64,000 nucleotides of DNA from Membranipora membranacea (lineage: Eukaryota > Bryozoa > Gymnolaemata > Cheilostomatida > Membraniporidae): NCBI GenBank assembly GCA_914767715.1, contig OU612071.1, forward strand, positions 9,223,493-9,287,492. Reading direction: 5' to 3'. Position numbers and translations under genes: made by a program. The notes below the pieces were generated by a model. It made no database searches. It saw only the letters and a program-made list of their open reading frames with translations, and had not been told where the DNA came from. Each line of letters opens with the position of its first letter. The first letter of the stretch is position 1. This document shows, piece by piece, positions 6,801 to 62,560 of the stretch.

Positions 6801-9800
6801 TATGGCTGGTTCACATTGTCCCAGATGACACTAGGATGCCATCCCAGATGCTTATCCCAGATGGTCCCAGTCACATTATAACACTCATCCCAGATAGCCA
6901 TGTCTGGCTGGCTCCGTCTGGGATAGCATCGGGAAAGTTCGTAAGCGTCAAACTTTCCCGATGCTATCCCAGACGGACCCAGACAGTCTGGGATTGTGTC
7001 ATTTCCTGGTTCACATAGACTGGGACGGCTAAATATTATCTAGTCAATGTTAACTGAAGTGTATTGTAACTGTAGTGGTTGATCGCTCTTTTTAGTTGAT
7101 CTCAACCTAATACTTGCGAGCTATTAACTGGGTACACAGACCACCACTTACCCAGACTGATAGGTACAGCAGTCTGAGCACACAGACCACCACTTACCCA
7201 GACTGATAGGGACGACAGCCAGAGTACACAGACTAACACTCAACCAGAGTAACAGGTACACATGATGACGTGATAAACTATTGCAAGTATATCTCTGATT
7301 GATAGAGAGTGAATTAATTCACTTAGTATGAGTACCACCACAAGGAATTTGGTGTGACGACCCGCGGTAATTTTCAGTAATAAGGGGCGGGTACTTGTTA
7401 GGTGCTTATACTAAATAGACTCCAACGATGAGAGATACACACATGATAATAGTGTAGTCTCGATGTCAGTGTGGGGTCTGAGCACACAGACTAACACTTA
7501 CCCAGACTAATAGGTACAGCAGTCTGAGCACACATACTAACACTTACCCAGACTAATAGGTACAGCAGTCTGAGCACACAGACTAACACTTACCCAGACT
7601 AATAGGTACAGCAGACAGAGTACCAGCAGGACTAGCAGCAGGATGAGGATCTAACACAGACTTCACATCGAGTCTGATCGGCTCGGCGGCCTGAGCAAAG
7701 AAGTTAGACTTCCTTCTATTAATCTCCTGCACAGATGACGTCCTGTAAGAGATACAGAAGGTACTGATTGATTACTCATGTCACAATAAGGAAAAGAAGG
7801 GAAGCTATGCTGTATCATTCTGCCACCAGGATAACCTTGTGCCATGGCAGCACAGGGTTGGTGGCACTGCCACCAGTTCAAGGGTTTGAAATAACAGAAC
7901 GGAGGTTTCATTTAGGACCTAATATTTCCAAATTATAGGTTTACATTGTTTTTTTTTCCAATTTAGGTAATTGAGGTCTATGTGAATAAATTCAGGCCTT
8001 ATGCGGCAGAGACGAATGTATGCCTCAACAGTTTGCACATGCACAGAGTGTTGTTGTACCTTTAGCGTAATTTATCTGTTAAGAATGTTGATACATCTTT
8101 GATACATGCTGACTTTTGACCCATACTGGGGGCTGGAGGAGGTTGTGGTCATTTTGGAATTGTCCTAGATTCTAAATAGGATGGTTGACCTAGAATCTAG
8201 ATGAGATGGCTGACCAATAAAATTTGCACATTACAACACAGGATTATGAGAAAAAGACATACGGAGATATCTGCACTTTTCTTTGCTGTTGAGACCAGGC
8301 TGAGGCTCTGCTGGATGAACTCATCTGTTGAGCTGGCTTCTGAATGGCTGAATCAGCTTTGATGCTGATTGGCTGTTTGAGTATAGACACAGGTTGTGCA
8401 GGTTGCTGATTGGCTGCTGGTTGCGGTTCTTGTTTGAGAGCTTCGGTAGGAAAGCCTGGAGCCCTTTGGGGTTTGGCTGGGGGCGTCACAGACCTCGTGA
8501 GACTGGTCTGATCATCTGAAGTAGTTGCTGTTGATGAAGTTAGTGTTGTGTGTGATCCCTGGAAGTAAAAAATGTTCAAACAAATTAAACAGGAAATTGA
8601 AACTAATACTGTAAAGTCTAATGTCTCAGACAAAATACATTGGGTCTGGATTTTGAATCACCGAAAACATCTATTTTCAAAATTTGATCTACAAAGCTGT
8701 ATGTTTAATGTCATGTAATGTGTGTTCATTTCTGCACATGGTAATGGATAACTTGAGCCCTCAAACTTTGGCTTGCCTGAGAATGAACAACAAAATATTG
8801 ACGCAATGTTAAATCATCCAACAATCTACCTAGCCAACAAAAGAAAACACATCCACAGTGAGAATTAATGGAGAGAAAGTTTTGTTTTATCTATTTTCTC
8901 ACATTAGATTGCTGTTTATGAAGCCGTTGTTTTCGTCTCCATGTTTCAGTATCTAACACATCATCTATAGAAGGTAGAGTTGTCTCCTCCATATCGGAAT
9001 CATCCCCTCCGTCTTCGTCATCTACCTCCATATCATCATCATCAGAGTCTGACTCGTAATCCTCCCAATTTGTCTGTAATAATGAATGAGCATGGGAGAT
9101 AAAGGCAAATATACATGGATAATACTACTATGGATACTTTCCAAGTACCTAAATAAGTATATCACAATGGGGCAATATGATCGCTTTGCCCTGGTTGCTG
9201 TTTTAGAAATTCCTATTACCTCCTCCTACGCTAACATAACAAATTATGCATGGTTCACAGGCCTTTGTCAAGCGTTAGAAGCCAATCTTTGAGGGCTAAT
9301 CTAGCGGGTATGAGCCCAAGTTCGGAAATAGTATTGTTTCACTTGCCCAGAATGGTAACAATATTACCAATATATCCTGTCAGGGTAAGATATGAAAAGT
9401 AACATGAACATAAAACAGAGTCAAGTCTTTGAAACAGAACAAATTTTCCAATCTTTAATACAAGTACTTACTGCACACTAAATGTATGACCTGCATGTGA
9501 TGGGATGTAATAATAGGTGAAACAGCAAAGAGCTAAGGGAGAACAAATCTGCATCATGACAATTGTCCATAGCATTAAGACTAATAAATTTTATCTGAAT
9601 TTCAAGCGAGACAAACAAGTTTTTTGGCAGACTGGACGCATGTGATTTGTTGAGATTGAATCTTATAATGTTTATTAACCATCATACTACATGATCTTCA
9701 CTACTGCTCTTCATGATAAATCAGCAGAGTATCCGCACTGATTATGATAATTAGAGACCGGCCAATCAGAGAATTTGATCAGCTGATGCAAGTCACAGCC

Positions 9801-12800
9801 CCCCTTTTTTCCACATTACCAGAACAAATAATGACATTGACAGTTGATATAGGCCACCCAGATAATGTCAAACCACCAAGATCATTTCCATATTGGTCTA
9901 CGTCTGATAGATGGGACGTGACAACACACAATCTGTTGATGATGGGGGACCACCCAGAAAGTGATAATACCCAAATAATGAGAAAATCCATATAATTAGA
10001 CCACCCAGATAATGAAACCAAGGTCACAACAATAACTGACTGGTTGAGGGCAGACCACCCAGGTTGTGTGTCTACCTAGATAATGACACCCCAGATAGTT
10101 AGCCCGAGATCACAACAATACCTGCTCAGTTGAGGGTCGACCACCCAGGTTGTGCAAAGTTTGTGCTTCCTCTGATTCTTCGTCAGCTAAATCCATCGAG
10201 CTCTCAAACTCGATCCTCTCGGGTGTCGCAAACTTTGAGGCGAGCTAAATCAGACCAGCAGTGAATCAAGCGTGCATAATTAGAAAAGCATTGAATTAAA
10301 AACATTTTGTGGGTAATAAAATGATGGATTTGAAGATTTGCGCTTGATTGGCAGTTTTCACACTAAATCATAGCTTCACACTTTTTTGTGAGACAATTGA
10401 TAAGCCATGGAGTGCGGAACTACAAACAAAACAATCTTGAATGGTTATAAATATTGTTCACACAATATAACTTGCAGAGTTGCCTTTCCTTTTGAGAATA
10501 TTAACCAATCACATCACATCCTCAATAAGAATTGACCAATGGCATAATTAGAGAGCAACTCACCTGATCATGATTAGAATTTGAGGCAGAAGGCGTTTCA
10601 AACATAATAGAATCGGGGCGACTGTTTGCAGTAGTTGAGGAGTCAGCTGTATCGAGACCTCGTTTTAGTGATTGTCTCTCCTTCCCCACATGCTGATTAC
10701 AGTAAAACCTCGCCTGACCCAGACTGCTCCTGTGTAGTGTATAACTACCCACATGTAACGATGCATCACAATAATAACACCTAAAATACAAACAGGGTCA
10801 TTAGGTAAATTATACGGACTGTAATGAAAATAATTAATTGGACTATTTTTGCTAAAAACATCAAAATCTGGAAAAACATGATATTACATTAGTCAGGTTT
10901 CACCCATAGACTTGACAATATCAATATTATAAAGTCTAAGATTTTCCCATTGACAATGTTTTTTCAATGGGTTATGCATACTATGATTCCATTCAGCGTC
11001 TTTGGAGCGACATTCACCAAAGCTCTGCTTCTTATGTCAGTCAAAATGATAAGAATGAAGTATGGTGTTGCTTGAATGCTCTAATAAATTATGATGATGA
11101 TGATTTTGGTGGTGTTATTGTAATTTACGAGCTCAACTTTTGACTAGGTTGATGGTAGTGCCGTTCCATAATCAACCAGTCTCAAACCAAATTTTAGGTC
11201 CTATTTGGTTGATAGCGGAACACCACTACAGGCTACCAGGCATTGTTTAAGCACATAAATCTACATGTTAGCGATGATGATGATGTGATGTAGAATGATT
11301 GAACCAAAATACAGGACCAACTATGGCAAATCGAGATTTTTAAACCAACTCATTTCATTTAGTAAAGTGTAACATCAATCGATCAATCATATACAGGAGA
11401 TCTTGTTGTACTAGCTTGTCGTAACAAAATTTGTTCGAACAAAGCTTGTCAACACAGGCTATTATTCTCCAAACTAATCAATATTTTTGCGAATATATAT
11501 ATTTTTTTTATGAGGTCAAAACGTTGTCATTTTTATTTGTTCATAACAATCTTATTTATATGAAAACCTCAATAAAAATGAGTAGTAATAGTTAGAGAAG
11601 CCATACCTGAAGCAGCGGCGATGGAAGAACATGCCCTCAGCGCTCTGTCTCTCCACTAGGTATATTCTCTTCTTACAGAAGAAGCAGATCTCATTCTTAT
11701 TGGGTTCTCTGTTCAGTATGACGTCCAATCCTGAAGGCTCCTCTGAGGGCTCGGCGGCGCGACGCTTCACTATCGGAGAAGGCTCGGGGGTGGACTGTAA
11801 ACAAAAATTTTTCATTTTTTGGTGGCACAATATACATATCTAGCTAATCAAAACACTCAATCAGAGACTTCAATATCTTTGTCAGTAATGATGGCTCGGG
11901 GAAGATCTAGAAAACAAAAGTAGTTTGATATTTAATTATATGTTAACAAAAACGGTTGTTGTTTTCAGGTGGGATATCGCAAAGGAGTACATATCTATGA
12001 AACACTTCAACAGCAGACTCCAGCGTTTTTGTTGCCTGCTAGTTTTCTTGTGTCATTAAATCTTAGCCTGGTCACGTGGCGGCGTGGTTATTTGTTTTAG
12101 GACAAGTGACAAGGCCATGTGACATCCCAATGGTTTGTGAGTAGATATTGTAGTATGGTATCTCATACAACGCTAAGTCCATTGAGCAAATATTGTCTAT
12201 ATTCTACTAGACCAGGTTTGGACCATTTGTCTGCATTCGGAGTTGCTCCCAAACCACTGGTCACGCCGCAGGCCAGTGGGACGGAGCAACTGGAATGCAG
12301 GCAATTGGATTAAACATCTACAGACTTTTCAGAATAACAAAACTTACAACTGGAAGGTACCCACCTGAGAGAAGATAGAGGCGACTTGACTGACTAGATT
12401 AGACCCGCGTTTACCCGGGTTAGTATTACCGATATTACCCGGCTCCATCCTCCACGAGGTCTCCCTCATCCTCACATCAATCTCCTCCAGCTTATCATAC
12501 TTGCCAGCCATCCAATCATCTACATTCAAGTAAAAATATGTAACACATTGGTTGCTTTTAAGTCATGACTTGATTTATATTCAATTCAGAAGTGGTCATC
12601 TTGAGTCAGACTCAGACTCGGAAACCAGAGAGTTGGGTTCGAGTCAGGATTTGAGTTCAGTAAATAAGTCACAAGTCATCAACTTCAATTGTGCTTCATT
12701 GAAGACCAATACATATAATAGGCACAACCTGCCGAATCGAGCTGAGCATTGAGCTGAACCTGCGCCAACATTTAAAAACAAAATTCTCCTGCAAGCAAAA

Positions 12801-18800: not shown

Positions 18801-21800
18801 TATCTGGTTCCTTCGCTGAGCAAATCTCTCCTGGTGTCAGCATAGGTAGAATACCTGACAGCACAAATTGTAATAAATACACATAGCATCACTACCAATA
18901 CCGATCTCAAATGTGACAAATCATGAACTTACAGGTGGACCTGACAGTGGCATTCATGATAATCTGTGATATATTCCAATGATATCAGCAGAACATATGA
19001 TGGGCAACAACTTTCACATGGATCTGATTTATTTGCGACCTGCCAATGTTGAGGCTACTGAGGACCACATGTGTAAAGACTTTTACAGCCGACCCCATGT
19101 TGAGGCGTTTGTAGACCTCCCATGTTAAGGCTTTTGTAGCCCAACCGTGTTGAGGCTTTTGGAGTATTCTCCTATTAAGGCTTGTGCAGCCCACCCAAGT
19201 TGAGGATTCTGCCGACCACCCATGTTGAGGCTTTATGCGGCCCACACACGTTGAGAGTTTTGCAGCCCACACACAGTATATTAATAGGTTGAGCTTTGTG
19301 CAGCACACACATGAAGATTATTATGATCATATATTAACATACCATACTGTTTCTCTGCTGTGTTGAATGCCTGTGTCAGTCTCTCCATATCAGATAGTTT
19401 ACTGATCTGATCCGTAGGTAGAGAGTCGGGTGAGTAGAGGTGTAACAGCAAATAAAACTTCCTACCATCCTTCCAGTCACCAGTCAGGTCTGAGGCCATA
19501 CACCGCACCTGTAATATGTAAAGTATGTAATATGTAATAAGTAATAATATACTCAGTGATATTGCTTTTATTTTAACAAACACTTTATTTGACATTTAGT
19601 GCCCCTTTTAAGGCCAATGAGAATATGCTTACATTAAGATATGATACAATGATACGCTCATTTATTTAGCACCCCCTTGTGCAAAGTGAGGGTGGGCAAG
19701 CTCGGGTTATGTATGAAGAGCTCACCGACATTAGCAGCATGGGTAGTGACCGGGATTCGAATCTCGACTCTCAGATTGAGAAGCTCGAGTCCTAACCACT
19801 ACGTCTAGCCTTGTCATGCGGCCAGGGTTTTTGGTACCAAAACAAAACAAACCATGACCCGCGTGACACGGCTACACTAGGCCACCCTGGATAAAGCCTA
19901 ACAAATGCAACATCATCTTCATTCTTACGTTTATATTTATTTTTCCACTTTTTTTCGGGACGATTTGGAAAAAATTTCACTATTGATATCATACAGAATG
20001 TCAATTGAAGTATTTTCAAAATTTTATATGTGCTTGATATAATATCATTTTGTTTGTTTTAGCTTTTCACATTTCAAACGAATACATAATACATATATTA
20101 TGTTAGTGAACCAACTCATATATTACTTCCAGCAAAAACAGTTGATAATGATGATAAACTATGGAATCTCAGTTAGCTGAAAAATGCTTCAAGCAAAATC
20201 ACCCATGTGAGGACAGATCCGACTGTTAATTGTGTTCTAATAATCTGTAAGAAAATATTAATTCACTTCCAATTTGGAGTTGTCTTCCTAAATGGAAGTA
20301 GTTCAGAGAGCAGACAACTTGATTAAGAACTCAATTTTTACTGATACATATTACCCTACACAGCCTACAGGATTGGATTAGGCGCAGCGGGAAAGGGTCA
20401 CCATATCACAGATTCTGAATACTAATCCTTATGGCTAGCTAACACTGAATCAACCCCAATACCTCAGCTGGCCGAAGTTGACATTAGCTATTCAGTCATC
20501 CAAAAACTATATAAACATATATATATATATATATAAACAATGATGCCACTCAGCGTACCTCTTTAGGAAGCAGGGCCAGCTTCTTGTTACACCACCTCAG
20601 CAGTCTGTTATAATCGAGTATGATGTCATAAGTGCGAGCCTTCTTTGCCGGGATTGCCACCGGCTCCAGCTCTTCTATATTAATCTTCTCTGTGGTGTCG
20701 TACAGATGTCGTACCTGAATCGGCTTCAGTGCCTGCGTGTTACAGTGCTTATATCTGTGGAAAAATAATAATGTTATAGGATTAGATACTCTAAGTCAAA
20801 GTCATAGTCATAGTCATAGTCTAAGTCTAAGACTGTCCAAGTCTAAAGCTGCGTTTACATTAGGTCGTCTTTTGGCCCAGTCTTGAGTCTGACCGACAAA
20901 TTACTAAGACGGAGGCTGAGACTGTGTAGTGTGAATGACAAAAACGGTTGACTGACCTTGTCTGACCGGCTTTTAAGACGGTGTCTGGCAATTCAAGCAG
21001 TGTTCGTTTTGCAGTCTAAGACTGCCCGTCTTAACACAAATTCCTAATTTAGCGATCACAATACTGCCCTGTGTTCTATCACTCACATTTATTTTCTGTT
21101 TACATAACTCTGAGACTGACATTGGCTAAGCCGGTGCTATGTAAACACATGCCAGTCTCAGACTCTGGCTCAGACTTGGGGTTAAAGACTGCTCAGTCTT
21201 GAGTTGGTGGCCAGCTGACGGAGACGGCCTAATGTAAACGCAGCTTTAGTCTAAGTGCTCAGACCACTGCAGGCGCAAGTTAGCTGCATTTCATGACCAA
21301 ACACTCATAGTAAAATGAGTGCTCAACAATGTAATGCAGCTAACTTCCACTTGCACGTGACGCAGAAACATTAAAGAAATGTAATTTTTCAGATAAACAT
21401 CAGAAATTTGTGAGTGAGTAGATATTCTATGGAGGGAACTCATATTTGAAATATTCATCTAAATCTATCGATAATTTTCAATTAAGGAGGGGAGGAGGGT
21501 TTGCAGGCATAACTTAAATATTGGCTACCTAATTCTGATGATGTACCCTTTGGAAGATAGGACAAGATATGGGTCTATGCTTGATCGCGAGCGCTGTGGT
21601 AACTTATACTTGGACTAATCTGCTTGTGTTGGTGCCTACACTCTTGTATTCGGCCTATCTGGCTTAGACCTTACATTTATTAGCTTTCATTAACTATTAT
21701 GCCTATCATGTGAAAATGTGAATTGATTTCCTCATCTAGTTCTTTGAATGGTACTCTTGGTCAATTTTATGGCCAGTGGTTTATTTGACTTTTTATAGAA

Positions 21801-24800
21801 GCTTTCACTCACCTAGTTTTAGGGTTGATGGTGTAACTTTCACTCACCTAGTTTTAGGGTTGATGGTGTAGTTATTGAAGCTCTTACTCATACTCTCCGG
21901 CGTTGTCTGAGACAGTAACATATACACACTCTCCCTCTCAGCTAACACTTGCAGAGGGCTGACACGGCCTGAGGCCCACGATCGCGTCGCCCAGGCAGCG
22001 TCAAAACAACCGAGGAACCCTCGAGCGCACCCACTACCTGTAAGATAAAAATAAATGAAAAAATCTTGAATATTGTTACAAACATTGATGTGAACACAAA
22101 TGTTGACAGTGATCAGTTTGATAGTGCCGCTTCTGATTTCCCATGGAAAGCTAAAAGAAAAAAAGATGTTTTAGGGTCTACAACATTGTTTCATGGTGTG
22201 AGACGCATTCCATCTGGCTAATGATGCAAAGAGAGGAATATTACATTCATTTCGGCATCTCCCTATTGCTGCATATATTTCATATTAGAGTGAGCAGCAG
22301 AAATAAAAATTAGCAAGTCAGATAAACATATCAAGTTCAATTCCATGTACCAGCATACTGACTCAGTCCTGGTCTACTGTTAAATAGCCAGCAAATTGAG
22401 AGGGAGCAACTCTTAATGGAGCAAAATAGAAAACTTGTTCAATCCAATGCCTGATCCAATGTATTAACCAATATATGTCCTATATATCCTATACAGATCC
22501 CATTATTGACCACATTAGGATGGATAACCCAGAATTAGTCAGCTCACCTGTTGGCCAGAAAGGCTCCAGCAGACTATCACCGACTACATTGATGAGAAGT
22601 TTCCTCCCGTATCTCTCAATGACACGAGATGAGTTATCAGCAGCAAACAGTGATGTGAAATCAAACATGGCAATATCAGGCTACAAGGGGAGATAATAAA
22701 GATATGAGGGGTGACCACACCCAGCCCCTTATTTAAGATAAGAGAATCAGGCTACAAGGGGATATAGTATATATATGAATGTTTCCCTCATGACATGTTT
22801 TACTGCCTTCATCAGTGGTAATAGTTGGGTTGTCCTAAATGGGGAATTAATAAAGTTTGAAGAATTTTGATCAAATCAGGTTACAAAGATTATATCAAAT
22901 ATTTATTTGTGTAGCTAAGCACCAAGTTTAGCATCTGATTCTTCCAAGCTTTTCCAATTCGATGCCCAGCACCTAAACTTTGGTGGGTTTTTTGTCGACC
23001 AAGGTAATACATAGTATAGGTGTGTGCATATCACATCAGACATGTGTCATTGCATCGTCCCTTAAGGCTACAAAGTTTCACACATGTATTTTGGCAATAT
23101 GGATGCCAACTTGCACCAAATCAGGTTATCATAGTACTTGATAGTAATATTGTTACCAGTTCACATCAAACCTGCAGCATAAAATTCCTGATTTAGTCCC
23201 AAAATTTTGTCGGCAACATAGATGCTATCTGATGCCAAACCTGATTAGCAGAGGACTCACACTGCATGTATATGAACTTATTCGCTTAGCATGAGTAACA
23301 TCACAAGGAATTTGGTGTGACAAGCCGAGTTCAGTTTTATTAATTAGGGGCGGTTACATCTTAGGTTCTCTTACTAATTTGACTCTAACTATCAGAGATA
23401 CACATGATAATAGCGTAGTCTTGCTGTCAGTGAGATCAAATCCCTCATTTAGACTACAAAATTTCACATATATTTACAGGTATGTTGGCAATATGAATAC
23501 CAACCCATGCCAAACCCGATTATCAGAGGACTTGATCATATTATTATCATTACCTGTTCACATCAAACATGCTGCATCAAATCCATCATTAAGTCCCAAA
23601 AATTTCACATACGTTGGCAACATAGATGTTATCTCGTGCCAAAACTGATCAGAGGGCTCACACTTATGACGTGATATACTATATCATGTATATCTCTGAT
23701 CGATAGAGAGTGAACTAAATCATTTAGCATGAGTACCATCACAAGGAATGGTTGGTGTGACGACGTGTTCAATTTCACTAATTAGGGGCGAGTACGTGTT
23801 AGGTACTCTTACTAAATTGACTCAGAGATACACTTGATAATAGTGCAGTCTCGATGTCGGTGTGCATGGGATCATATTATTACCTGGCCAAAATGGTTGT
23901 GAGCAAATTGTAGATTTGGCAGCTTATGATTGGTCGATACGTCAGCGGCTTCTCTGGAGTAGTTCTGTAGAGCTTTCTGGTTCACATTATCTCTAGATAG
24001 CAATCTACAATAGAATGAAAAATTTAATCAACCAATCAATTAATTTTATCAACCTTTCTAAATCAAGCTATCAACCTATCTACAATGCAAAATATCGCTT
24101 TATCGCCCTAATATCAACCTATCAAAATCAACGGACTCTATCAAATTGATTTCAACCTATCTTCAATACAAAACATCACTTTATCAACCTGTTATCAACC
24201 TGTTATCAACCTATAAATAAGAAACACAATTCAGGGTTATATCAAGCTAGTACTACCTTTTCCTCAACAACAACCAATGCAGTAACAATAAGTTTTAAAT
24301 CGATACACACACATTGATTAAAGGCAATATCAACATGGTATAAGCAGTACAAAGAGGGGGTTCATCAACACAAAATCTACCTATATTAAGGAGCATTACG
24401 GTATGTGAAACAATCTTATCACTGATCTACAACACTGAGCAAGCCAGTGATTGGTAGGGAGATAAGATACATGGGCCGCGGTAAACAAGGAAAGAGTTGT
24501 GAATTCAGCATTCAGTGCAATATCATATAATCAATGATATCAGATTTGAATGCATCATAAAATAGGGAAATTTCGTCCTAACATCTCTGAAGTTTTAATT
24601 TAGGACAATGAAACTAGTCATGCTAAAACGTGACTCCACACCTATAAAATGAGTCATAGGGCAAGCCATGTTGTGAGCGTTGGGACACTTTTTTTCCTCA
24701 AAGCAGAGCTAAAAGTATCCTATGAATTCGTTCTAAAAATCCACACAGCTTTTCAATAATTTCATTGAGTTGGAAATCTCATTTCTATACTGGCCAATAT

Positions 24801-42900: not shown

Positions 42901-45900
42901 TGTACCCAAGAGAGGAAAACTCTCTCCGCTTCAAAGATGATGATGATGAAGCCCAACCCCATAAGGCAACAAGCAGTATAAGTGTTCTAACTGTTGCCCG
43001 TTTTGCTGATAGTGGCATGCCAATATCAACCTAAGAAAGCCAACATTCAAAAACATACCAAACATTTTTCATGTTACATGTTACAGTTGATCATTTCTTT
43101 TCACATTCTGTATTATCACCTAGTGATATATGAATGCTAAAAAACAACATCAACTCAAATATTCTTCATAATTATATTTTACAGATTTGTTTTGGTGCTG
43201 GTTTACTAGTCAACGAAATTGTAAATAAAGTCCTGAAGACGATCATATCTGAGCCTCGTCCAGCAGTAACAGGGCGAGTCCAGCCTCACAGCTACGGCAT
43301 GCCCTCCGACCACTCGCAGTACATGTCATTCTTCTGTACATATGTAATACTATTCCTATGCATCAGGTAAGTGTGCACATGTAATACTACACCCATATGG
43401 CCTTGTCAATCGGCTAAATGTTTTTGTTTTGGGGCTAAAACAAAAAAAGAGGCCGCATGACAACGCTAACACCCATGCACATGAAAATATTCTGTGCAAA
43501 TGTAATACTGAACCTATATATATCATGTTTGTGCGCACATGTAATACTGTTACTATGTATCAGGTAAGTGTGCCCATGTAATACTATTCCTATATATCAG
43601 GTAAGTGTGCTAATGTAATACTATTCCTATGTATCGGGTATGTGTGCACATGTAATACTACACCCATATGGCCTTGTCAATCGGCTACATTTTGTGTTTT
43701 CTGGGGCTAAAAAAATAAAGAAGCCACGTGACAACGCTAACACCCATGCACATGAAAATATTTTGTGTGCATGTAATACTACACCATGTACACATACAGT
43801 ACCACACCTATATAGCAGAAGCGTATATATACATAAAACTATGATTGTGGTCTCTTGATCCTTATTTCGCTGTTTTCTACACAGCGCTACAGGTTGATGT
43901 ATGCAATGAACTCAGTTCATTGATATATGTGTGGATTAGAGGTTTGCATATTGATGCGAACAAATTCGGAATGTTTCAATTCCTAGAAAAAAATCTTTAC
44001 TTAGGTGTGTTACTGGTGACACCTCCCTATCAGTATCAGTATACCACATGGTTTCACATGTTTTGACATGTTGTAGCGACATAGCCACCACTAGATTTTG
44101 CCAACTGTATTGATGATAGGTTTTTGCAGATCAGACTATTGACAGATCAGCTGCCTCAATATAACTTACACCCCTCTTTTATATTTACAGGGCTCACAGA
44201 TCAGGATCATACTTAGAGGAATTCTGGAAGTTACTTTTAGGTCTGGCGTGCTCAGTAGCCTCTGCTTTGTGCTGCTACAGGTATGTCATGGTAGCTTAAG
44301 CTCTCTAACTCTACCTGGGTTGATGGTAGGGGCATTCTATCATCAATATTTTGTCATTCTTTGGCTGCGTTTTTTGACAAATCGATTTTATTTTTTGCGC
44401 TCCTCGTAATTTTACTGTGTGCAGTGAGTAATGAAAAGAATATATATGCGAAAATATTGTTGGTCAGTGAAAGTCGGATTTTACTATAAACCAGGTATGG
44501 ACATTGGTTGGTAATGAAATGGTTCATACCCAGAATATATCTATTTGACTGAAATTGATTTTTTTGCCCAATTTATGTCAAAGCCAACATCTATAGAGAA
44601 GTTAGACGTCAGAGGCCTCTTAATCCAAAATCTAACCCCCCCCCCCCCGTCCTACCAATCATCACTCTGAACTGCAAACCCCAGTTCATGCTGACAGATA
44701 CTGATATTATCTAGTTTCAGCATCACAAAGCATCACATTTTATTATATCCTTCCAGCCGAGTGTACTTACTATTATATTTTATTATCTCCTTACAGCCGA
44801 GTATACTTACTGTTCTATTTTATTATCTCCTTACAGCCGAGTATACTTTATACTTATAGTATCACACAGCGTTACATTTTATTATCTCCTTACAGCCGAG
44901 TATACTTACAGTATCACACCGCGTTACATTTTATTATCTCCTTACAGCCGAGTATACTTACAGTATCACACAGCGTTACATTTTATTATCTCCTTACAGC
45001 CGAGTGTACTTACAGTATCACACAGCGTTACATTTTAGTATCTCCTTACAGCCGAGTGTACTTACAGTATCACACAGCGTTACATTTTATTATCTCCTTA
45101 CAGCCGAGTGTACTTACAGTATCATACAGCCTTACAGATATACTGGGGAGTTATAGTTGGTATAGTGAGCGGATGTTTCTGGTTTTTTATTGTACATATC
45201 ATACTTACACCTTACTTCTCAATAGTCACCTCATGGTAAGTTATTGTAAAGTAGATATCGACTAGTACCTAAATACAGTGTAAGCTGGTTAGTTCAAACT
45301 TATAATTCAAGACTCCTGTTAATTCAGACAAGGAAAATTGGTCCCTTTAGCCAGATCTCAATGTATTCTAGTGTCACTTAATTCAGACTCTGCTTAATTA
45401 GAGCAAATTTTTGTGGTCCCCAGAGGTTTGAATTTGAGTAACCTGCTCTGTACCTAGATCAAGTTTGATTGAGTTTGCTCACATTCCACTGATAAGTGGG
45501 GGAAGCAATTCCAAATACAAACTTGGCCTACTTAAAACCTCTTCCAACTCAGAAGAGAAAATAGTTCTCATGCTGGACAGTTCGCCTTTTCACACCGGTT
45601 TGAAGTTGTGAAATTTTCGGTATACTAACCAGATAACCACTACCTTATAGAAGCTCCCACAAAAAATGGCGCTTACTGACATTGAGTATCCCGAAAGAAT
45701 CACGAGGAGGTCGCAAATGTGTATACTGATCCAAAAGTGTATACTGATCCAAAATGCCTTTATCTCATAAGACATCCTCTTTTAACTATTTTATCTTGAG
45801 TTTGATGGCTACCTCTAGGTTCCTGTTAGTTTTAAGAAGCTACCCATCCCTGGTCCCTCGCAGTATGAATTTTAGCCTTGATTTTAACTTATGCCGTATT

Positions 45901-49807: not shown

Positions 49808-52800
49808 CTGCAATGAGAAGCAAATTGCCAAACTGAATCATAGTTTTCTAGCAAAGAGTACTGTAAAATTAAACAAATTAGCAAACCAAATAATAGTTTT
49901 TGAGAGTTCAATTAATTACGAATTTTCGTTCATAAATATTTTAAATTCGAGAATAGAGTTAAAAATTATTCTGAACGATGAGTGTTGCTTTGCATGAACC
50001 AATGAGGCCCTAATATTATTTTTTCAACAAGACTTTTTTTGGTTGTTTGATACAAGGTAGCCTATATGCATTTGTAGATGTTGTTGCCCTGTTCTGGTGA
50101 ATTTAGACCGGTACCCAATATTAAAAGTTGTAGAGGCAGGGAATGCACACACACTCATAATCCGGATAACCCTAAACATACTACTCCCGAGACTCGAAAC
50201 ATTCAATGACACAAAAATAAAAGCCGGAGGCAAAAGTTGTCAAGCCCTGAATAAGATAGCTATTGCACATGTAGGCCTCATCACCACTTTACTCTTAATA
50301 TTTTTTAGTTTCCTAAATTTCTTAACTTGTTGGATGATATGGAAACAAAAAAACAAAAAAAATACAAGCATAATAATATCCTTACCAGCAATCGGCTGGT
50401 TACATTTCTCGCATATCTTAGCGAATAGTTTGACATAGCACTCAGGACAGTAGGGGTTGTCATCCTTGGTAGCAAACTTAACATGAGCCAGCTCTGCATT
50501 ACACTTAGTGCAGAGGAAACATTCTCTGTGGAAGGCAGCATCGCGGAATGTCACGCCTCCCTGCAGCAGCACCTGTCAAAGTAATCAAGGAAAGAATATT
50601 AATTTTATTTGTAATTAAATGATTAAACAATAAAACAATTTAAATTTTATAATATTACTTGAAAAATCATCATAATCCATCCTGTGTCATTCAAATACAT
50701 CAATAATTATTTGAAATTGAATAAATATTTCAAAATTTAATTCAAATTTAAAATTAAATTTGGAAATTACTTGCAAATTCATCAAGAATAAACTTTAGAC
50801 TGAGTCATCAAAATACTGCGGTTTTTTCGAGTGCTATGTAAACAGGAGCAGTCACTTCAGCATTGCTAATGAAACTAATGCAGTGTGCCATCTGAATTTT
50901 GCTTTGATACCGATGCTTTGTGGTAGCTACTAGTTGCCATCTTGGCCACTAGTCAAGATATGAACTTCAAAATTTAAATTCACTTCACTTACATCAGCAC
51001 ACTTGCCGCACTTCTGGGCGAAGTTCTCATTGTAACATGGCATACAGATCAACTGATCTTCCTCTCGGGGTACAAAGCTGTTGTTGCCGATCGGCTTCTG
51101 ACAGATGGCGCACAGGAAGCAGGCATTGTGGTATCTTTTACCATTGTACTCAAACTTCTGCATACCTGGAGACAATAAAAGGGATTCAAATTAAGTAAAT
51201 AAAATTAAAATTAAATTAATTAGTTTATGAGATATTCAAATAAAAAATAAGCAAGAACAATATTCATTCTAAGTTTTTCAGGAAATAAATTATTAATACA
51301 GCTAGGGGATTACATGGTACATCGTGGGTAATAATTTTCATCACCTCTTATAATGAGATGTCGGATATACGTAAATGAGTAAAAATTTCTCAAAAGATGA
51401 TCTCACATTCCCGAGTCATTTACAGAGAAACTAAAAAGCTCATGCAGCAGATCTCAGGAAAGATCGCAACTCATCAACACCAACCCAGCAGCTAATCAAA
51501 TAACAAGAAACACATCGCTCTAATCTGATTGACTGTTAGGTCAGGAAACAGCAAACTAACAGCCAATCAGATAAGAGCGAACACACTGGCTGATTGGCTG
51601 TACTTACCATGCTTGAAGGTCTTGTTGCAGACGTCGCATCTCTGGGCAAAGTTGTTATCGTAGCAGTCTGGGCAGTACAGACCGTCATCTTTACCGACAA
51701 ACTGCTGGTTAGCCAGAGATCCTATAATAAGGAAAGAGAAGGTTAAAGTACCGTGCCCGTAATCTAGACATTTACAACATTAAGATCATGGCAAGAGGGG
51801 AAAAAAGTTTTTGATGGGTCAGTTGTTTGTTGGCAACTTAATTCACTCCATTTTTACCAATTATCACAAGTTTATTATATATTGATCACATACCATTATT
51901 CAGTTTTCAAATACATAATAATAACTACCACTTAGCGACTTCAGATTCAAGCTAGCAATGATGTCTACTTCAACAGAAGATATTATGGTAATTACATCAA
52001 ATTTGGCCCGAGTACAAAGAGTAATGATACCAGGGAGGGTGGGATACCCACCCTCCCTGTTGCTACCCATGAGTATTCTTACCCTGACAACTCCAGCACT
52101 TGAAGCAGTCCTCGTGCCAATGTCTTCCCTTGTAGGATAGATCTTTAAAGTCGGTACCGATTGGCTTACCGCAAGTCTCACACCTTACAAAGATAACAGG
52201 AGTGCAGAGTGACAAATCAAATTATTACACATTTATGAGCTACGACCATCACGTGGCTGAAGGAAACTATCCTACATGCTTTAACAATCTAGCTTACCAG
52301 AAATAGTTAGACAATAAAACATGTTACCCGATAGCAGTAATTTTTTCTGAGCAAATCTGGCAAATCCACAGTAGAGGGAGTTGCCTTCTGCTAAAGCAAG
52401 GGGAAATAACCCTTATAATTGAAAGCCAGATCCTCAACAAACAACACCTTTTCTTATTCTGTATGAGGGTAAATATCGAGGTGATGGTGTGCCTTGTGTG
52501 TAACATCAGGTGTGCACTAGCTTCAAAATCAGAAGTGTTGAGTCTATTCAACTAAGTACTCCTGACTGAGACAATAAACTATGATGTACAATAGAGCAAG
52601 GCTATAGGGACTATACACAAAGAAGAAGGGCTATGGCTCACAGGTTCAATAAAACAAGGCAATAGAGACTATACACAATAGAAAATAATACAACTCTCAA
52701 TAAATTAAGGTAATAGAGACTATACACAATAAATTAGGGAGATAGAGACTATACACAATAGAAAATACTATAACTCTCAATAAATTAAGGCGATAGAGAC

Positions 52801-53081
52801 AATACACATTAAATTAGGGCGATAGAGACTATACACAATAAATTAGGGAGATAGAGACTATACATAATAGGAAATACCATAACTCTCAATAAATTAGGGC
52901 GATAGAGACTATACACAATAAATTAAGGCGATAGAGGCTATACACAAAAGTAAAGTTTGATAACGTACCTATCAGCAAATTTCTCCTCGAAGCATGATAG
53001 ACATGTAGGTTGGTCCTGTCTCAGTACATATCTCTTACCAGTCAGTGATGTGTCGCAGTGAGCACAGTTATAGTGTTCCAT
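49653..53081 (-). CDS. FHL: four and a half LIM domains protein (FHL), complete, 6 coding exons
   Basis: LIM-only scaffold protein; vertebrate members act at the cytoskeleton, muscle Z-discs and as transcriptional co-regulators. The six coding exons join to 280 residues, exactly the usual FHL length. Order is an N-terminal half LIM (C6-x2-C9, MEHYNCAHCDTSLTGKRYVL) then four complete LIM domains, all with regular C-x2-C and H/C ligands; the protein ends VCPECGKNM. Phases agree at all five junctions. The coding start exon has an acceptor upstream of ATG (at about 53123), so the 5' leader is spliced. The FHL family is certain; vertebrates have several paralogues and this is not assigned to one. 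Confidence 0.96.
50386..50572 (-). CDS. FHL: FHL exon 5
   Basis: Encodes VLLQGGVTFRDAAFHRECFL through PYCPECYVKLFAKICEKCNQ, the rest of LIM3 and start of LIM4. Phase 0 to 1. Confidence 0.94.
50993..51165 (-). CDS. FHL: FHL exon 4
   Basis: Encodes MQKFEYNGKRYHNACFLCAI and QLICMPCYNENFAQKCGKC, the end of LIM2 and start of LIM3. Phase 1 to 0; GTAAGT donor. Confidence 0.94.
51608..51721 (-). CDS. FHL: FHL exon 3
   Basis: Encodes SLANQQFVGKDDGLYCPDCY and RCDVCNKTFKHG, the end of LIM1 and start of LIM2. 114 nt, phase 1 to 1. Confidence 0.94.
52083..52183 (-). CDS. FHL: FHL exon 2 (first full LIM)
   Basis: Encodes CETCGKPIGTDFKDLSYKGR and HWHEDCFKCWSCQ. Phase 2 to 1; GTAAGA donor. Confidence 0.94.
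52377..52517. repeat. dispersed ~145-bp repeat, copy 1
   Basis: GGAGTTGCCTTCTGCTAAAG and ATAATTGAAAGCCAGATCCT recur at 56385-56532. Origin unknown. Confidence 0.75.
52565..52945. repeat. ~29-bp minisatellite in FHL intron 1
   Basis: Many units of AATAAATTAGGGCGATAGAG + ACTATACAC with small indels. The array ends about 20 bp from the FHL exon 1 donor. The units are directly adjacent with no spacers. Confidence 0.9.
52969..53081 (-). CDS. FHL: FHL coding exon 1 (half LIM)
   Basis: Encodes MEHYNCAHCDTSLTGKRYVL and TCLSCFEEKFAD. The exon continues upstream as 5'UTR to an acceptor near 53123. Donor GTACGT; a ~29-bp minisatellite starts about 20 bp into the intron. Confidence 0.93.
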
Positions 53082-56207: not shown

Positions 56208-56582
56208 ATTCAGCCATGTGACTCAATATCCCTTTGAGACATTGATGTGGCAAGCTTTTATGCCGAATTCACAAGTATCACATACTCATAGCTCATACTA
56301 TGCCCACATGTAGTGCCCAATCACCGAACTACAGTTACTTTTTTGCTGCTAGAATAAGCTAAAATGGCCAATCCATTGTTATAGGAGTTGTCTTCTGCTA
56401 TGGCAAGGGCAAATAACCCCTATAATTGAAAGCCAGATCCTTTTAAAATCCTGTATCAGGGAGCATGAGCCTGAATGATGGTAAAAATCACGGTTATGGT
56501 GTGCAATGCATGTCACCTCAGGTGTATCACATTTTCTCGTAGTTCATACTATGCCCATATGCAGTGACAATGCACTGACAAT
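56208..56582 (-). repeat. XPA: partial copies of the 3' end of XPA exon 7 plus flanking 3'UTR
   Basis: CATACTATGCCC of the exon (56689) recurs at 56545 and 56294. The 56545 copy still reads YGHSMNYEKM and stop. The 56294 copy also shares the following ~75 bases of 3'UTR (CATTGATGTGG, TCAATATC). These are decayed exon-tail duplicates, not genes. Confidence 0.8.
56385..56532. repeat. dispersed ~145-bp repeat, copy 2
   Basis: Same unit as 52377-52517; lies between two of the XPA exon-tail copies. Confidence 0.75.
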
Positions 56583-56670
56583 GCACTGACAAGGCCATGT
56601 GGCTCAGGTGACTGAGTGATGTGATTCAATATCACTTTTATGACATTGATGTGGGATGAATTCAGATTTA

Positions 56671-56822
56671 TCACATTTTCTCATAGCTCATACTATGCCC
56701 ACACGTTGTGCACTGTTTAGTGTACTCGTCTGAGTCTTCGTTATATGACTCAGCTCCCCACTCATGCGTGTGACCAGCTAGGTCTACTTTATATAAACTA
56801 CTGCGTACCTCTCTCTTCAGCT
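56671..56822 (-). CDS. XPA: XPA exon 7 (stop codon)
   Basis: Encodes [20 protein letters not shown] and, at its end, [13 protein letters not shown] and TGA, matching the human C-terminus CTMCGHELTYEKM. TATTACAG acceptor. Partial copies of its 3' end lie downstream at 56545 and 56294. Confidence 0.95.
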
Positions 56823-59800
56823 CTGTAATAAATCAAAATATCAATTCCCATTACTCTAGTGTGGCTTCTTGGAGTCCAACTTTATATGCTTGTATTAAAT
56901 CTTGCTGTTTTATCATCAGACTTGGACTAAAATCTTCGAGGGTCCACAATAGCTATTGCAATATAATAGTTGTGACTTCTTAGCAGCGCACAAAATAGAA
57001 TCTGCGTCTAGTTTTAAATGTTTGCTGTTTCAACCACGAATATTCATATTGACAATTTACAATCGTTATCCAAGAAAGTGACAGAGCAATGAATATACAT
57101 GGGGAGTGGACAAGTTGAGGGTAAAGGAAGGCGTGGGATGAGGTTGACCGAAACAGCCGAGCTGCGAAACATTAAATTGACCTGGAAGAGAATTATGTGA
57201 ACGACCGGGTTAGATGGAGGGTCATGGAAGAACTGGGAGTCAATAAATACCAATCAGAAAATGGAGGCGGCCAAGGTCAGCCCTTGGGAAGGTGATGTAA
57301 TGCGATACCAATAGACCCTTAGCAGTTTGTATGTAATTATGCCTGTTACGTTTATAGAATAATTCACTGACCTGTCATTTTCTTCTCATACTTTTTAGAT
57401 TTAGCTTTTGCACTGAGTATTTTACGCTTTGTCGATTCATCTTCGATGGCTTCCATTGAGCCCCATATCTCCATCGCCCTGTCATAACACTGCATGGGAC
57501 AAAAAAGGACATAAAAATATTCCAATGATGTAAAAACTTATTATGATCAATCTAAGAATAAGATCTGAATTAAGATGTTATCCCTTGGATTGGATATCAT
57601 GAAATCAGGAACATAGAGATCTGTTTGATCAGGGCTTGATAGAAGCTTGTCATGGCAAGCTTGTCAAGACAGGCTAGGTTTGAGAGGTATATGTTGCTTT
57701 TTTTTAAATTATTAATTGAGAGTTATTATCTCCTTGAACTGTATGTTCAGAGAGGGCATAACTCCCAATTGGTAAAGTCAATAAAATAAAACCTATAATC
57801 ACAACTAATCAACTAATCACAATCATAAAATGGTCGATAATTGAATGCTACTACCAGCTATCCCGACAAAGTGTGAGAACTCAACCAATCAAAGCTTCTT
57901 GCACACTAACCATCACTTGTTACTTAGTTCAAGTGCTCAAACCGTGTGGAGAGAGTTGGTAGTAGTATTTCATTACCAGCCACTTTCCATTCCCAGGGAA
58001 AGGAACGGATGGAATAATTGTCGACAATGAAATGCTGCTACAGATATCGCAGCACAGTTTGGACACTCAAACTACTTATCATTGTCAAGTTGACATCGAG
58101 ACTACACTATTACCATATGTATCTCTGGTCTTAGAGTCAATTTAGTACCAGTACCTAACGTGAACCCGCCCCTAATTCGTTACCCGCCCCTAATTCGTTA
58201 AATTAAACTCGGGTCATCACACTAAGTTCCTTAGGAAGGTACTCATGCTAAGTGAATTAGTTCACTCTGTATTGATCAGAGATATACATTCAGTAGTATA
58301 TCATGAGAGCAGTGTGGATTACTGAACATACCTGGGACTGTAAGTAGAGTTTCATCTCACCCCAGTGATTATTACGCGGATTCTTTTTAGTGATAAACTT
58401 TAGTATTGGTTCCCTTCTGTCTAAATCAGCATCTGCAAGGAAAATAACAAAGCATTATATTTGGCTATGAACTTGGTTTGGATAGGTTAGCGGCTATTGG
58501 GGTTCAATTATATATGGTGGTTGACAACATTATGCCACCAATAACCGCAACCTAAAGCTTATTCCAAGCGTGTTCACGGAGAAAGATGATATTCATGATA
58601 CAAGTGAATTGCCAAATTGTTAAATTACAGCCGTTGTTAAACAACCATGTGCAGTTCGATTCAATGTTGGCTGCTGAAAATGAATGCTTTTCCTTTAATT
58701 TGAATCTATCCAAAATAATCCAGGGGGTCTTTCAAGTAAAAACAGCCGAAATCAGAATATGCTTGCTCACTCAATGAGTGAGTGATACCTGTAGGCTCTC
58801 GTTCAAAAATCCCTCACTCATTTATGGAACAAGTTACATTCTGAGTGAGCAATTTGGGAGTGATTTCGTCTAATTGAAAGACCAATAATGTGTGATCATC
58901 TTGAGCGATGTGATATTGACAATTTGCGTTAGTAAAGCATCGCTTATTGTGATTGAAAGACCCCCAGTCTAAAAATAGAAGGCTCCTCACAGGTGACCAG
59001 AGCAGACAAGAGAATACTTATACAAAACACAAACAGACTAAGCATGTCAAAACCTTCTGAGTGGATCAGAAGTCAAACATTCTGCCTGCACAATAGTCTC
59101 TGCAGCACAGCAATACTGGTTCCCATCGTTTGATGACATCACATTCATAGTTCAAGGTTATGAATATCACAACCAGTGTTCCATTACTGCCCAAATAGTA
59201 TGAGATGAAGGGATTCTGTAGTTATCCTAATCAAGGAGCTAAGTCTAAACAATTAGTTAGTTTCCATGGACCGATCACTGGCCGATAGTGTGGCGACTTT
59301 GGTCGACTGATTGACTTTTCCATTTTCATAACTACTAAAGTTGACCTTGGCTTTAATACAACCTTTTGCATGCAGTGAAAAGTCGCTGTCAAAGACAAGT
59401 CGACCCGAAGCGAGTTTGAACTCATGGGAACATGGCCACAATTCTGTATAAGAAACGTTGCCCTTTTACTGTTGGCCAGCTTCTGGCCCATGGATCCTAA
59501 CCAACCATGCGCCTGTGCCTGTCCTGAGTGTTTCTTATAGCCGAGCACTCACCTTTGAGGAGGAATTTGGTTTTAGCTGTGGTTCTTGTTACAAGTTTGT
59601 GGCGTTCTCTATCATGGCAAGCGTCACATACATCAACAGAGAACTTATTCTTCAAAAATGACAGGGCAAAAGGTCGGCAGCATTCACCGCATTCCACCTC
59701 TGAACTGCTGCCTGCGATCACAAACGGCTCTATAAGTAAAGGGGAGTAAAGTTGACAATAAGCCCAACAAAAGGGAAATAACATGTCACGTATAAGGTTG

Positions 59801-62560
59801 ATTACTTTCTCCAACATATAATCGCTCTCGTCCATAATTACCGCTCAAAACATCTGGAGACCGCCAAATTTATCCTAAACGAGAAAAGTCTGAACTAAGT
59901 GACAGTAAAAAGCATCAATATTTGGCTGAAGGGATTGGAATATTGCGTGTCTGGATTGAAGTAAATTCTGAATTAAGTAGAGTATAGTATACAGACAAAT
60001 GAAAAATGTAAATGCAGGCCCAGCTTACTCGCTAGCAACAAAAGTTCTTTGTAAACGAGCTGTGAAATAGTAAACATAATTTACCCAAGAGGAGTTAAGT
60101 CTCTGCAGATGGAAAAGTTTGCCATTTTGTAAAGGGTTTGAACAGCTAAATTTCAAGGCTAGCTAACATTTACGTCATAAAAGTTCCCACCTTAGACACC
60201 CAAAATCTAGAGCTAGCTAAAATTAAGTCACCCACAAACTAGCATAGTTAAAATCCAGTTAACATTCACTCCACTAGGTCATGGTTTTTGAATTTGAGTG
60301 ACTCCATGAAGTTGAATGTTACATCTCACTCAATGGCACACTGATGACGTGATATACTATTGCATGTACATCTCTGATCTATAGAGAGTGAATTTATTCA
60401 CTAAGCATGAGTACCATCACAAGGAATTTGGTGTGACGACAGAGTTCAATTTTACTAATTATTGGGCGGGTTGATGTTAGGTACTCATACAAAGTTGACT
60501 CTAATGACCAGAGATACACATGACAATAGTGTAGTCTCGATGTCAGTGTGAGATACTCACCATCCTGCATGAGCTGAGCGAAGTCAACATCCCCCATATC
60601 CGCTCCTTCTTCTCCCTCCTCTAAGAAAAAGCCCCCTCCTGTGTCCACTTCCTGTATTGTGGACACTTTGTGCATTTTACCTTTTTTCCTCTCACTAAGA
60701 ACAGACAGCAAAAATACATATGAAAAATTTGGGATATTGAGCCATGCCGGGGAAGATTCACTCTAACTCTTGTACATTCTCGTAGATCTAGACTCATTGA
60801 GAACTCAACAAACAATGTGAACATTATATCAAAAATGACATAATAACTGATTAGCACAAATCGATCTGTGGGGTCTCTCAATTACAAACAGCCATAATCA
60901 CTAGTTGATCGCTCACTCTGTGAGTGAGTGACACCTGCTAGGGTCTTGCTCTCACTCAATGATGGAACTATATACACTCAGAGTGATTGAGTGAGTGATT
61001 TGGGATCGAGTTTGTCTTCTAATTGAGTGATGTGATAGTGATAACTTGCTTTAGTAAAGTATCACTCATTCTGATTGAATGACCCCCCCCCCCTTGTTTG
61101 GATTGGCTATGTTCATTTCTCTTATTAAATATATGTGAAACAAGGTCATGGGGTGAAGGTCAGAGTTACAACCACTTTGATATCAGATCAGTCAGGGCGG
61201 AGTGAAACTGTTTACTGTTAAGCTAACATCAAGTCACCTCAAATCTACCCACAAAAAAATTTAGCTTAGTGTTTACTCCTCTAGGGTAAGCAAGACTTGG
61301 ATAACAGAGGAATATCAATGGTAACCTTGGCAGTACGTAAGTTGAGCCTTTCAAACAAGTAAATATTCCAACCAGCACTGCAACTCATTATTAAATTTTT
61401 GCAATGTATGCATGTGTATTCTATCATTGCAGTAACAATATCATTGGACTTCGTACATTAAAATATAAGAAAATGAAGGGATCTCCAAGCTTATGGATGG
61501 CTGTTTGGTCAGGTAAAGAAAGCCACCAGTCCATCAGTCACCCTACCCACCTAACAGTCAACAAAAGACAACATCGACATCGGGATTACACTACTATTAT
61601 GTGTATCTCTGATCGTTAGAGTCAATTAAATAAGAGTACCTAACATGTACCCACCCCTAATTGTTAATATTGAGCTCTGGTCGTCACACCGAATTCCTTG
61701 TGATGGTACTCATGCTAAGTTAATTAATTCATCCTCTATCGATCAGAGATATACATGCAATAGAATATCACGTGATCAGTGTGACCTAAGACAACACATT
61801 GGCAAGGATATACTTACACGGATATACTTACACGGATATACTTACACGAATATACTTACACGGATATACTTTCATGGATACACTTACATTTCTTCTTCCT
61901 CTTGTTTTCGCTGCTTTCTGAGCTGTAGCGCCCTCTGTCTGTTGTTTTCTATTCTGATTTTATCGATCATTCTCAGATCTTTTTCCTCTTTCTCAGGTAC
62001 AGCCTCCTCTGGGCTGATAGCAGCATCGACCTTCTTTTCTGTATCAGCGCCTACCAAAGCATTTCATCATTACATAAATTTCATTAGCTGGATATTGATA
62101 TATTTTAATTTCGGGACGTAGCATATTTATAATTGAACGGAAGCACATGTCAAACCAATGCAATTATAATTAAAAGTAAATAACCAGTTTGTTGAATATA
62201 TGTAACGTTTATTTTTATTTAGACTCCGAGGGTGAATTATGCAAATAAGAATTGAGTAATTGGTAGGGAATCACAAGCTGATTCAATCAATACTTGTTTT
62301 TCAAGTCAACAAAGTATTGTATATCATTATTGAAAAGCACTTACTATCGTTGGTCAACCGCAGAATGAAAACGTACTCGGCGGTAGAAAAATTGAGAATG
62401 TCTGTAATTATGTTGCTTAACTGAAAAGGTAAGTTTCTACGTTTGTGTGCTCACCTTTCTGCTTAAGATTATTGGTAGCGTTCTGTGCCGTTTCCGGCTC
62501 GTCCTCAGTGGCTACAGGGCCAGATTTGCCAGCATTTCTCCGAGATCTCCGCGGTGGCAT
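56671..62560 (-). CDS. XPA: XPA, DNA damage recognition/verification factor, complete, 7 exons
   Basis: Scaffold of nucleotide excision repair; it binds DNA, RPA and TFIIH at the lesion in the nucleus. Seven exons join to 316 residues (human 273). Landmarks in order: basic N-terminus [12 protein letters not shown]; the RPA-binding-like helix [32 protein letters not shown] (human DTGGGFILEEEE); the C4 zinc finger (C148-x2-C151, C169-x2-C172); the DNA-binding segment [34 protein letters not shown]; and the C-terminal TFIIH-binding element with [13 protein letters not shown]. All junction phases agree. The longer length comes mainly from the N-terminal Glu/Lys region. Family assignment is certain. 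Confidence 0.96.
57372..57489 (-). CDS. XPA: XPA exon 6
   Basis: Encodes [20 protein letters not shown] and a basic helix ending KKYEKKMT. Phase 0 to 1; donor GTCAGT. Confidence 0.93.
57842..58078. mobile_element. family-H palindromic element, copy 2
   Basis: Starts TGCTACTACCAGCTATCCCG; contains TGGTAGTAGTATTTCATTAC and the ACTTTCCATTCCCAGGGAAA palindrome. In the XPA intron after exon 5. Confidence 0.75.
58089..58316 (+). mobile_element. family-A MITE, copy 5
   Basis: Core carries a small internal duplication of CCGCCCCTAATTCGTTA. Ends 16 bp from the XPA exon 5 boundary. Confidence 0.88.
58332..58432 (-). CDS. XPA: XPA exon 5 (DNA-binding)
   Basis: Encodes [20 protein letters not shown] and [14 protein letters not shown]. 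Phase 1 to 0; GTATGT donor with a family-A MITE about 16 bp downstream. Confidence 0.95.
59553..59729 (-). CDS. XPA: XPA exon 4 (zinc finger)
   Basis: Encodes [20 protein letters not shown] and [20 protein letters not shown]. The C4 finger ligands are intact. Phase 1 to 1; GTGAGT donor. Confidence 0.95.
60337..60550 (-). mobile_element. family-A MITE, copy 6 (best preserved)
   Basis: Both ends intact (CACACTGATGACGTG ... CGATGTCAGTGTG), 214 bp. Ends 11 bp from the XPA exon 3 boundary. No clear target-site duplication. Confidence 0.92.
60561..60694 (-). CDS. XPA: XPA exon 3
   Basis: Encodes [20 protein letters not shown] and [12 protein letters not shown]. Phase 2 to 1; GTGAGT donor with a family-A MITE only about 11 bp downstream. 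Confidence 0.93.
61569..61783 (+). mobile_element. family-A MITE, copy 7
   Basis: Full-length; lies next to the 14-bp XPA exon 2 donor array. Confidence 0.88.
61806..61888 (-). repeat. 14-bp tandem array of the XPA exon 2 donor
   Basis: Unit ACTTACACGGATAT on the plus strand, that is GTAAGT on the gene strand, at 61882 (real donor), 61868 (mutated), 61854, 61840, 61826 and 61812. Confidence 0.93.
61888..62050 (-). CDS. XPA: XPA exon 2 (RPA-binding helix)
   Basis: Encodes [20 protein letters not shown] and [13 protein letters not shown], matching human SIERKRQRALMLRQARL. Phase 1 to 2. The GTAAGT donor is the first unit of a 14-bp tandem array. Confidence 0.93.
62455..62560 (-). CDS. XPA: XPA exon 1 (start codon)
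   Basis: Starts [20 protein letters not shown], a basic then acidic N-terminus. Phase 1 at a GTGAGC donor. The start is the first ATG of the frame and has no close competitor. Confidence 0.87.

Follow-up and report, generated by a model that had tools for sequence, protein, structure and literature searches.

Mirages are minisatellite-like arrays in which the boundary between an exon and its intron is copied in tandem. They have been described in amphioxus, where the globin genes BflGb6 and BflGb9 carry them (PMC3087553; this and the other articles are cited here from excerpts). The same excerpt cites a mirage in Adh3, with units of 10–72 bp, length and somatic instability, and normal splicing, while PMC3902484 adds PGBD5, whose copy number varies between assemblies, and TnC. 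In one or other of these two articles, mirages are suggested to be general in cephalochordates. Here, we describe such arrays in MICAL, DOLPP1, and XPA of the cheilostome bryozoan Membranipora membranacea, within a 64-kb stretch of its genome (C7:9223493–9287492; the window), and an independent example in a kinesin gene outside it. By lineage, Bryozoa lie within Protostomia; a known kind of oddity is real in an unexpected, distant phylum.

As in the amphioxus excerpts, tandem copies of an exon–intron boundary resemble a minisatellite, many carry splice signals, and the exon-proximal copy keeps the protein. Units measure 14–148 bp here and 10–160 bp there. The arrays span the boundary, although the DOLPP1 donor at 43367 is copied rather than spanned and the XPA donor at 61887 is spanned by one base only; splice signals are present save in the MICAL “exon 22” copy and one XPA unit. 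As in amphioxus, both 5′ and 3′ boundaries are affected, namely donors as well as the acceptors of DOLPP1 (45103) and MICAL (22681). A first-pass annotation, made from the letters of the window alone, had suspected identity with mirages, and the structural features match. The likeness is one of structure, drawn from sequence alone, whereas splicing, polymorphism, and somatic instability are reported for amphioxus; from the homologous proteins, we infer that normal mRNA is probably spliced at the exon edge here as well. Unlike the amphioxus arrays, those of Membranipora belong to another phylum, occur several times in 64 kb, include a 13-copy block array in kinesin, and have an element resembling a miniature inverted-repeat transposable element (MITE) next to three donor arrays.

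Two further systems invite comparison, as far as their excerpts describe them. Intron gain by tandem duplication at AG/GT proto-splice sites (PMC3087553) likewise involves duplicated segments with splice signals, but no new intron is seen in Membranipora and the copies stay within an existing one. Direct repeats flanking introns (PMC11782384) also lie at intron borders, in contrast to the tandem copies of a single border found here. In the literature searched, which left most subscription papers outside, nothing joined bryozoa, minisatellite, and intron, or bryozoa, mirage, and intron; the relevant papers from mirage searches concerned lancelets only, and the searched repeat and intron terms were absent from the main text of the Flustra genome paper. 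Membranipora, with a chromosome-level HiFi assembly, a second haplotype, and RNA-seq, offers a second, distant lineage for testing mirages, in which it can be tested how a splice site is chosen among copies that barely differ, how the arrays turn over, and whether introns are gained by the route proposed.

Splice-junction arrays in MICAL, DOLPP1, and XPA

Arrays were called by Tandem Repeats Finder (TRF) and weaker copies by self-comparison of the window, which comes from an 18-contig assembly totaling 339,339,785 bases. Junctions were set by homology-based gene models comprising 23 introns and hence 46 splice sites in the window; exon numbers are those of the first-pass annotation. An Rfam scan of the window gave nothing at gathering scores. 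TRF arrays and homology-based junctions coincide, and the arrays at or near junctions are as follows.

21802..21870, minus strand: MICAL exon 10 donor array, 35 bp × 2.0 (TRF)
22675..22778, minus strand: older 71-bp duplicate, upstream, of MICAL acceptor 22681 (self-comparison; TRF did not find it)
10004..10154, minus strand: MICAL “exon 22”, weak 86-bp duplicate across the putative donor 10121 (self-comparison only)
7476..7614, minus strand: MICAL “exon 25” donor array, 46 bp × 3.0 (TRF)
7134..7260, minus strand: sister array of a related 46-bp unit, 2.8 copies (TRF), separated from 7476–7614 by a MITE-like element
43493..43660, plus strand: DOLPP1 exon 3 donor copies, 37 bp × 4.5 (TRF)
43342..43780, plus strand: duplication (lag 271 bp) with both the DOLPP1 donor and the 37-bp array in it (self-comparison)
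44737..45136, plus strand: DOLPP1 exon 5 acceptor array, 40-bp then 52-bp units (TRF)
61806..61888, minus strand: XPA exon 2 donor array, 14 bp × 5.9, unit GTAAGTATATCCGT (TRF)

Of the six splice-junction arrays listed by the first-pass annotation, five are found by TRF and four lie at junctions fixed by homology (21847, 43367, 45103, and 61887). The other two are less secure: MICAL “exon 22” is a weak copy from self-comparison, and MICAL “exon 25” is a clear array at an unsupported junction. Among the four, the DOLPP1 exon 3 array lies off its donor.

In MICAL, the authentic exon 10 donor at 21847 (ACTAG/GTGAGT) is accompanied by a single decoy with the identical motif 35 bp into the intron, which TRF reports as a simple duplication of two copies. 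The duplicate of acceptor 22681, with 27/31 aligned bases identical, is a seventh case that the first-pass annotation overlooked. The “exon 22” repeat is an old, weak copy: identity is 56/86 over the whole unit and 36/43 across the junction, while donor 10121 scores weakly (5.1) and its motif is gone from the copy (−2.7). The “exon 25” donor at 7593 (CTGG/GTAAGT) belongs to a gene model drawn from the open frame alone and lacking homolog support. Both cases were excluded from the junction statistics, as homologs for their junctions are lacking. Elsewhere in MICAL, an intronic array at 25137–25398 (87 bp × 3) lies 62 bp from an acceptor and has one frame open throughout; no splice-site copy was seen in it.

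The authentic DOLPP1 exon 3 donor at 43367 (ATCAG/GTAAGT) scores 14.0, a value equaled by two decoys. The array itself begins 126 bp into the intron, so that the donor is copied but not touched. For an element inside the spacer between donor and array, no copy was found outside its own duplication except a 35-bp match at 16906. At exon 5, the authentic acceptor 45103 (CTTACAG/CCGAG) is the copy nearest the exon, and five of the six upstream copies score 13.0. The XPA array contains only one exon base at the authentic donor 61887, and one of its units is without a splice signal. At the coding end of XPA, two further degenerate repeats lie downstream (56270–56701), a mirage-like copy of the stop-codon boundary.

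The first-pass annotation had also stated that the exon-proximal copy preserves the protein, which holds at all four junctions that homology can check, and that reading past a donor soon meets a stop. Indeed, use of a distal donor leads to a stop right at the authentic donor in MICAL (21847), DOLPP1 (43367), and XPA (61887). Of the DOLPP1 acceptor decoys, those at 156 and 267 bp would insert an in-frame stretch that bears a stop; the others would shift the frame. Growth of the arrays from the splice site into the intron, as proposed there, would be expected because the exon must stay intact.

The lancelet origin that, in the first-pass annotation, identity with mirages would have favored is ruled out by bryozoan homologs of DOLPP1 and XPA. 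Among named matches, the DOLPP1 model is closest to Bugula neritina and Watersipora subatra (65% and 60%). The same two species are closest to the XPA model, at 62% over 79% of the query and 55% over the whole query, with matches lacking a species name ranking equal or above. A protein search with a 534-residue MICAL query gave no bryozoan among the best 120 of 1141 matches, with far longer proteins outside its length limit.

The kinesin array and other sampled loci

Comparison loci comprised eight CCT genes (66 sites) and kinesin loci (35 introns, 70 sites), together ~79 kb, from which 13/46 CCT and 14/48 kinesin junction pairs had been filtered out on score or phase. Of 32 kinesin clusters, 14 were taken, one of them (L030) chosen since its tandem matches were already visible. 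Twenty stretches of 10 kb at preset positions (200 kb) served as background.

At C7:19.567 Mb, ~10 Mb from the window, the kinesin-domain search returned 13 consecutive matches ending near domain position 320. They correspond to an independent example outside the window, and the best one found.

L030:3020–4886 (C7:19.5669–19.5688 Mb), ~1.9 kb: array of a kinesin exon end plus donor, 13 units

The units are spaced 138–148 bp apart, and each carries the terminal portion of the exon followed by a GT donor and a brief intronic segment; the GT is kept in 13/13. Kinesin sequence resumes in the next exon, as judged by eye. Blocks of units are duplicated at 99–100% identity (u6/u0, u7/u2, u9/u4, u10/u5) or 96% (u8/u3), while the exonic part of the last unit has 87–93% identity. 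Since the spacings include 138 and 144, and a chance of (2/3)^6 = 8.8% attaches to the six periods of the first-pass annotation, the avoidance of multiples of 3 was rejected as a signal.

The kinesin array thus bears out the expected recurrence elsewhere in the genome. The broad scale that had been envisaged is not supported: junction arrays occur at 0/66 CCT sites and in one of 35 kinesin introns, at the very locus picked for its visible tandem matches, and most introns sampled outside the window are without arrays. In the sampled 200 kb, 0/35 arrays contain donors scoring at least 9 (0.8 expected) and 0/35 contain such acceptors (0.9 expected), a threshold that also overlooks the XPA and MICAL “exon 25” arrays. 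At the same threshold, donors occur in 2/25 and acceptors in 2/25 of the window arrays (0.7 and 0.8 expected), and 1/3 of the arrays in kinesin loci has a strong splice motif (0.8 expected). Array density is 39.1 per 100 kb in the window versus 17.5 in the sampled stretches. Among 63 CCT, 144 kinesin, 82 myosin, and 138 kinase matches, inspection by eye yielded one tandem partial-domain cluster; in the myosin and kinase tables, whose candidates, like those of the kinesin table, were scored in part, there were no tandem matches like those of kinesin, and small-unit mirages would escape a domain search. Junction arrays therefore recur in the genome but are not general; the window is rich in them, and its six apparent cases per 64 kb are untypical of the other sequence sampled.

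Placement and origin of the arrays

To compare placement with chance, 17 arrays in modeled introns were each placed anew at random within their own intron; the arrays at 44737 and 44849 were joined as one, and 22675 and the terminal L030 intron were entered by hand. A junction is spanned by 5/17 arrays versus 1.78 expected (p 0.016), and 13/17 either span a junction or lie within 75 bp of one, versus 5.2 expected (p ~4e-5). The latter excess stays at p ≤ 1e-3 when the hand-added, kinesin, or low-complexity arrays are removed, with 10/13 (p 0.001) after removal of the four short low-complexity ones. The four arrays outside the window behave similarly for intron ends (four spanning or near, 1.6 expected, p 0.015), with one spanning (0.64 expected, p 0.56). 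Relative to uniform placement, Membranipora arrays are hence overrepresented at or near intron ends. This excess is post hoc but firmer than the fragile one for spanning; a preference for the junction itself is not shown.

We consider the arrays to be, more likely than not, mirage-type minisatellites produced by neutral tandem duplication. A short duplication, caused perhaps by replication slippage or break repair, would chance to include an exon–intron boundary, and the array could then expand via unequal exchange or multi-unit duplication; the block structure of the kinesin array would fit such enlargement. Such an array would be tolerated because splicing could still use the exon-adjacent copy while the additional ones would remain within the intron, and the decoys would mainly be by-products rather than functional sites. 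Duplication is not confined to splice sites, because several intron-internal arrays, among them those at 25137–25398 and 19094–19270, copy no junction.

A MITE-like family of ~215 bp is represented at seven places in the 64-kb window and at four across the sampled 200 kb, and is thus commoner in the window. In alignment, imperfect inverted ends of ~45 bp are visible by eye; a clear target-site duplication was not seen. The window copies are as follows.

7252..7478, plus strand: between the MICAL 46-bp array and its sister array, ~215 bp
61566..61789, minus strand: 17 bp beyond the XPA exon 2 array
60332..60556, plus strand: 4 bp from XPA donor 60560, intron side
23654..23867, plus strand: 16 bp from MICAL donor 23883, intron side
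58090..58316, minus strand: two pieces, 15 bp from XPA donor 58331, intron side
23261–23438 and 120–324: further copies

Introners, as excerpted in PMC9860276, are likewise transposon-like elements close to splice sites. They differ in that the Membranipora element forms only part of an intron (225/831 bp for 60332–60556 and 214/1203 bp for 23654–23867) and does not provide both splice sites.

Several results weigh against neutral boundary duplication as we propose it. The spanning excess falls to 4/16 (p 0.058) without the hand-added 22675 and to 3/15 (p 0.096) when the kinesin array is also left out, so that the first-pass impression of far more cases than chance holds only in part; requiring three exon bases gives 4/17 (p 0.062). 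When positions rather than arrays are counted, a junction-spanning copy (score 36) is found at 4/46 window sites versus 4.8% of 2502 intron positions, and at 1/70 kinesin sites versus 12.5% of 1236 positions, a rate swollen by a single long array; the window thus shows no clear excess and the kinesin set none. The tests are all post hoc, with few cases that come mostly from the window. Further, the first two distal kinesin donors leave the frame open. In 4/4 arrays counted, moreover, mismatches are rarer in the splice motif than elsewhere in the unit, so that a degree of function is conceivable. In the remaining position tests, CCT genes give 0/66 versus 0.1% of 926 positions, and shared 24-mers mark 3/40 window sites versus a one-sided rate of 2.5% of all window positions. 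These position tests are blind to XPA, whose unit is nearly without exon sequence, and weigh multi-copy arrays too heavily. The position tests and the fragile spanning excess would suit mere coincidence, in which minisatellites arise everywhere and some reach splice sites, with no special rate at junctions or intron ends; so would the lack of strong motifs in the sampled arrays and the fact that these very cases led to the choice of the window. We regard coincidence as doubtful, given that the excess near intron ends persists after doubtful arrays are removed and that cases recur in three genes within one window, with a 13-copy case in a fourth gene. That selection maintains the decoys as redundant or regulated splice sites is quite improbable, despite the strength of the DOLPP1 donors and acceptors described above. 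Motif mismatches are clearly reduced in XPA only (1/30 vs 11/40 in the rest of the unit, p 0.009), by counts that treat copies of common ancestry as independent; the differences are not significant for MICAL “exon 25” (0/18 vs 1/74, p 1.0), the DOLPP1 acceptor (1/60 vs 11/148, p 0.19, four in-register copies), and the exonic part of kinesin (3/108 vs 65/1356, p 0.48; vs 24/192 intronic, p 0.005). Moreover, most decoys tested lead to an early stop or a frame change.

The MITE-like family suggests another origin, in which insertion, loss, or repair of the element by 5′ splice sites causes breaks whose repair duplicates the donor and starts an array. An element lies within 60 bp of 3/5 donor arrays (MICAL “exon 25” 0 bp, XPA exon 2 17 bp, kinesin 58 bp) versus 1/60 other arrays, that one being inside an element (Fisher p 9e-4, with the sister array at 7134 excluded). 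Of the five copies in modeled window introns, three end within 30 bp of a donor (p 3e-4); two more window copies lie outside modeled introns and thus outside this test. In the 79 kb of CCT and kinesin loci, the sole element trace adjoins the sole junction array, yet this copy is a remnant (25/27 bases, E 2.5e-5; profile E 0.08 and 0.11). All cut-offs were set after the data had been seen, and the element at MICAL “exon 25” may have inserted into a pre-existing array. Likewise, no element adjoins the MICAL array at 21847, the MICAL acceptor copy, or either DOLPP1 array, and no array comes within 60 bp of any of the four element copies from the sampled 200 kb. Seeding by elements is therefore unlikely in our view, and slightly more so its full form, in which the family lands just inside 5′ splice sites and mirages are the footprints of its activity. 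If true, the footprint reading would give a mechanism for the lancelet oddity and show how transposition can lead to new splice sites. Tandem arrays are also classic sites of misassembly, an explanation to which we give very little credence: the window arrays measure 69–400 bp and the kinesin array 1.9 kb, and usual HiFi reads are far longer than either. HiFi coverage of this assembly is 66-fold according to the excerpt of PMC10290214, against which stands one amphioxus globin mirage misassembled in a draft (PMC3087553).

Further repeats and unusual contigs

In a LIM-domain gene of the window (FHL-like by eye), a 29/109-bp array at 52662–52955 begins ~13 bp into the intron from donor 52968, which it does not copy. 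In the 10 kb directly past the window end, the arrays are all short or low-complexity.

The small contigs C12, C13, and C14 contain strong kinase or kinesin matches, some of them near whole-domain, with in-frame TAG and TAA. Some ciliates read TAG and TAA as glutamine, and the three are possible contaminant contigs. At C4:33456345–33457553, a chaperonin (Cpn60/TCP1) match occupies one stop-free frame of 450 codons, whereas the other copies match exon by exon.
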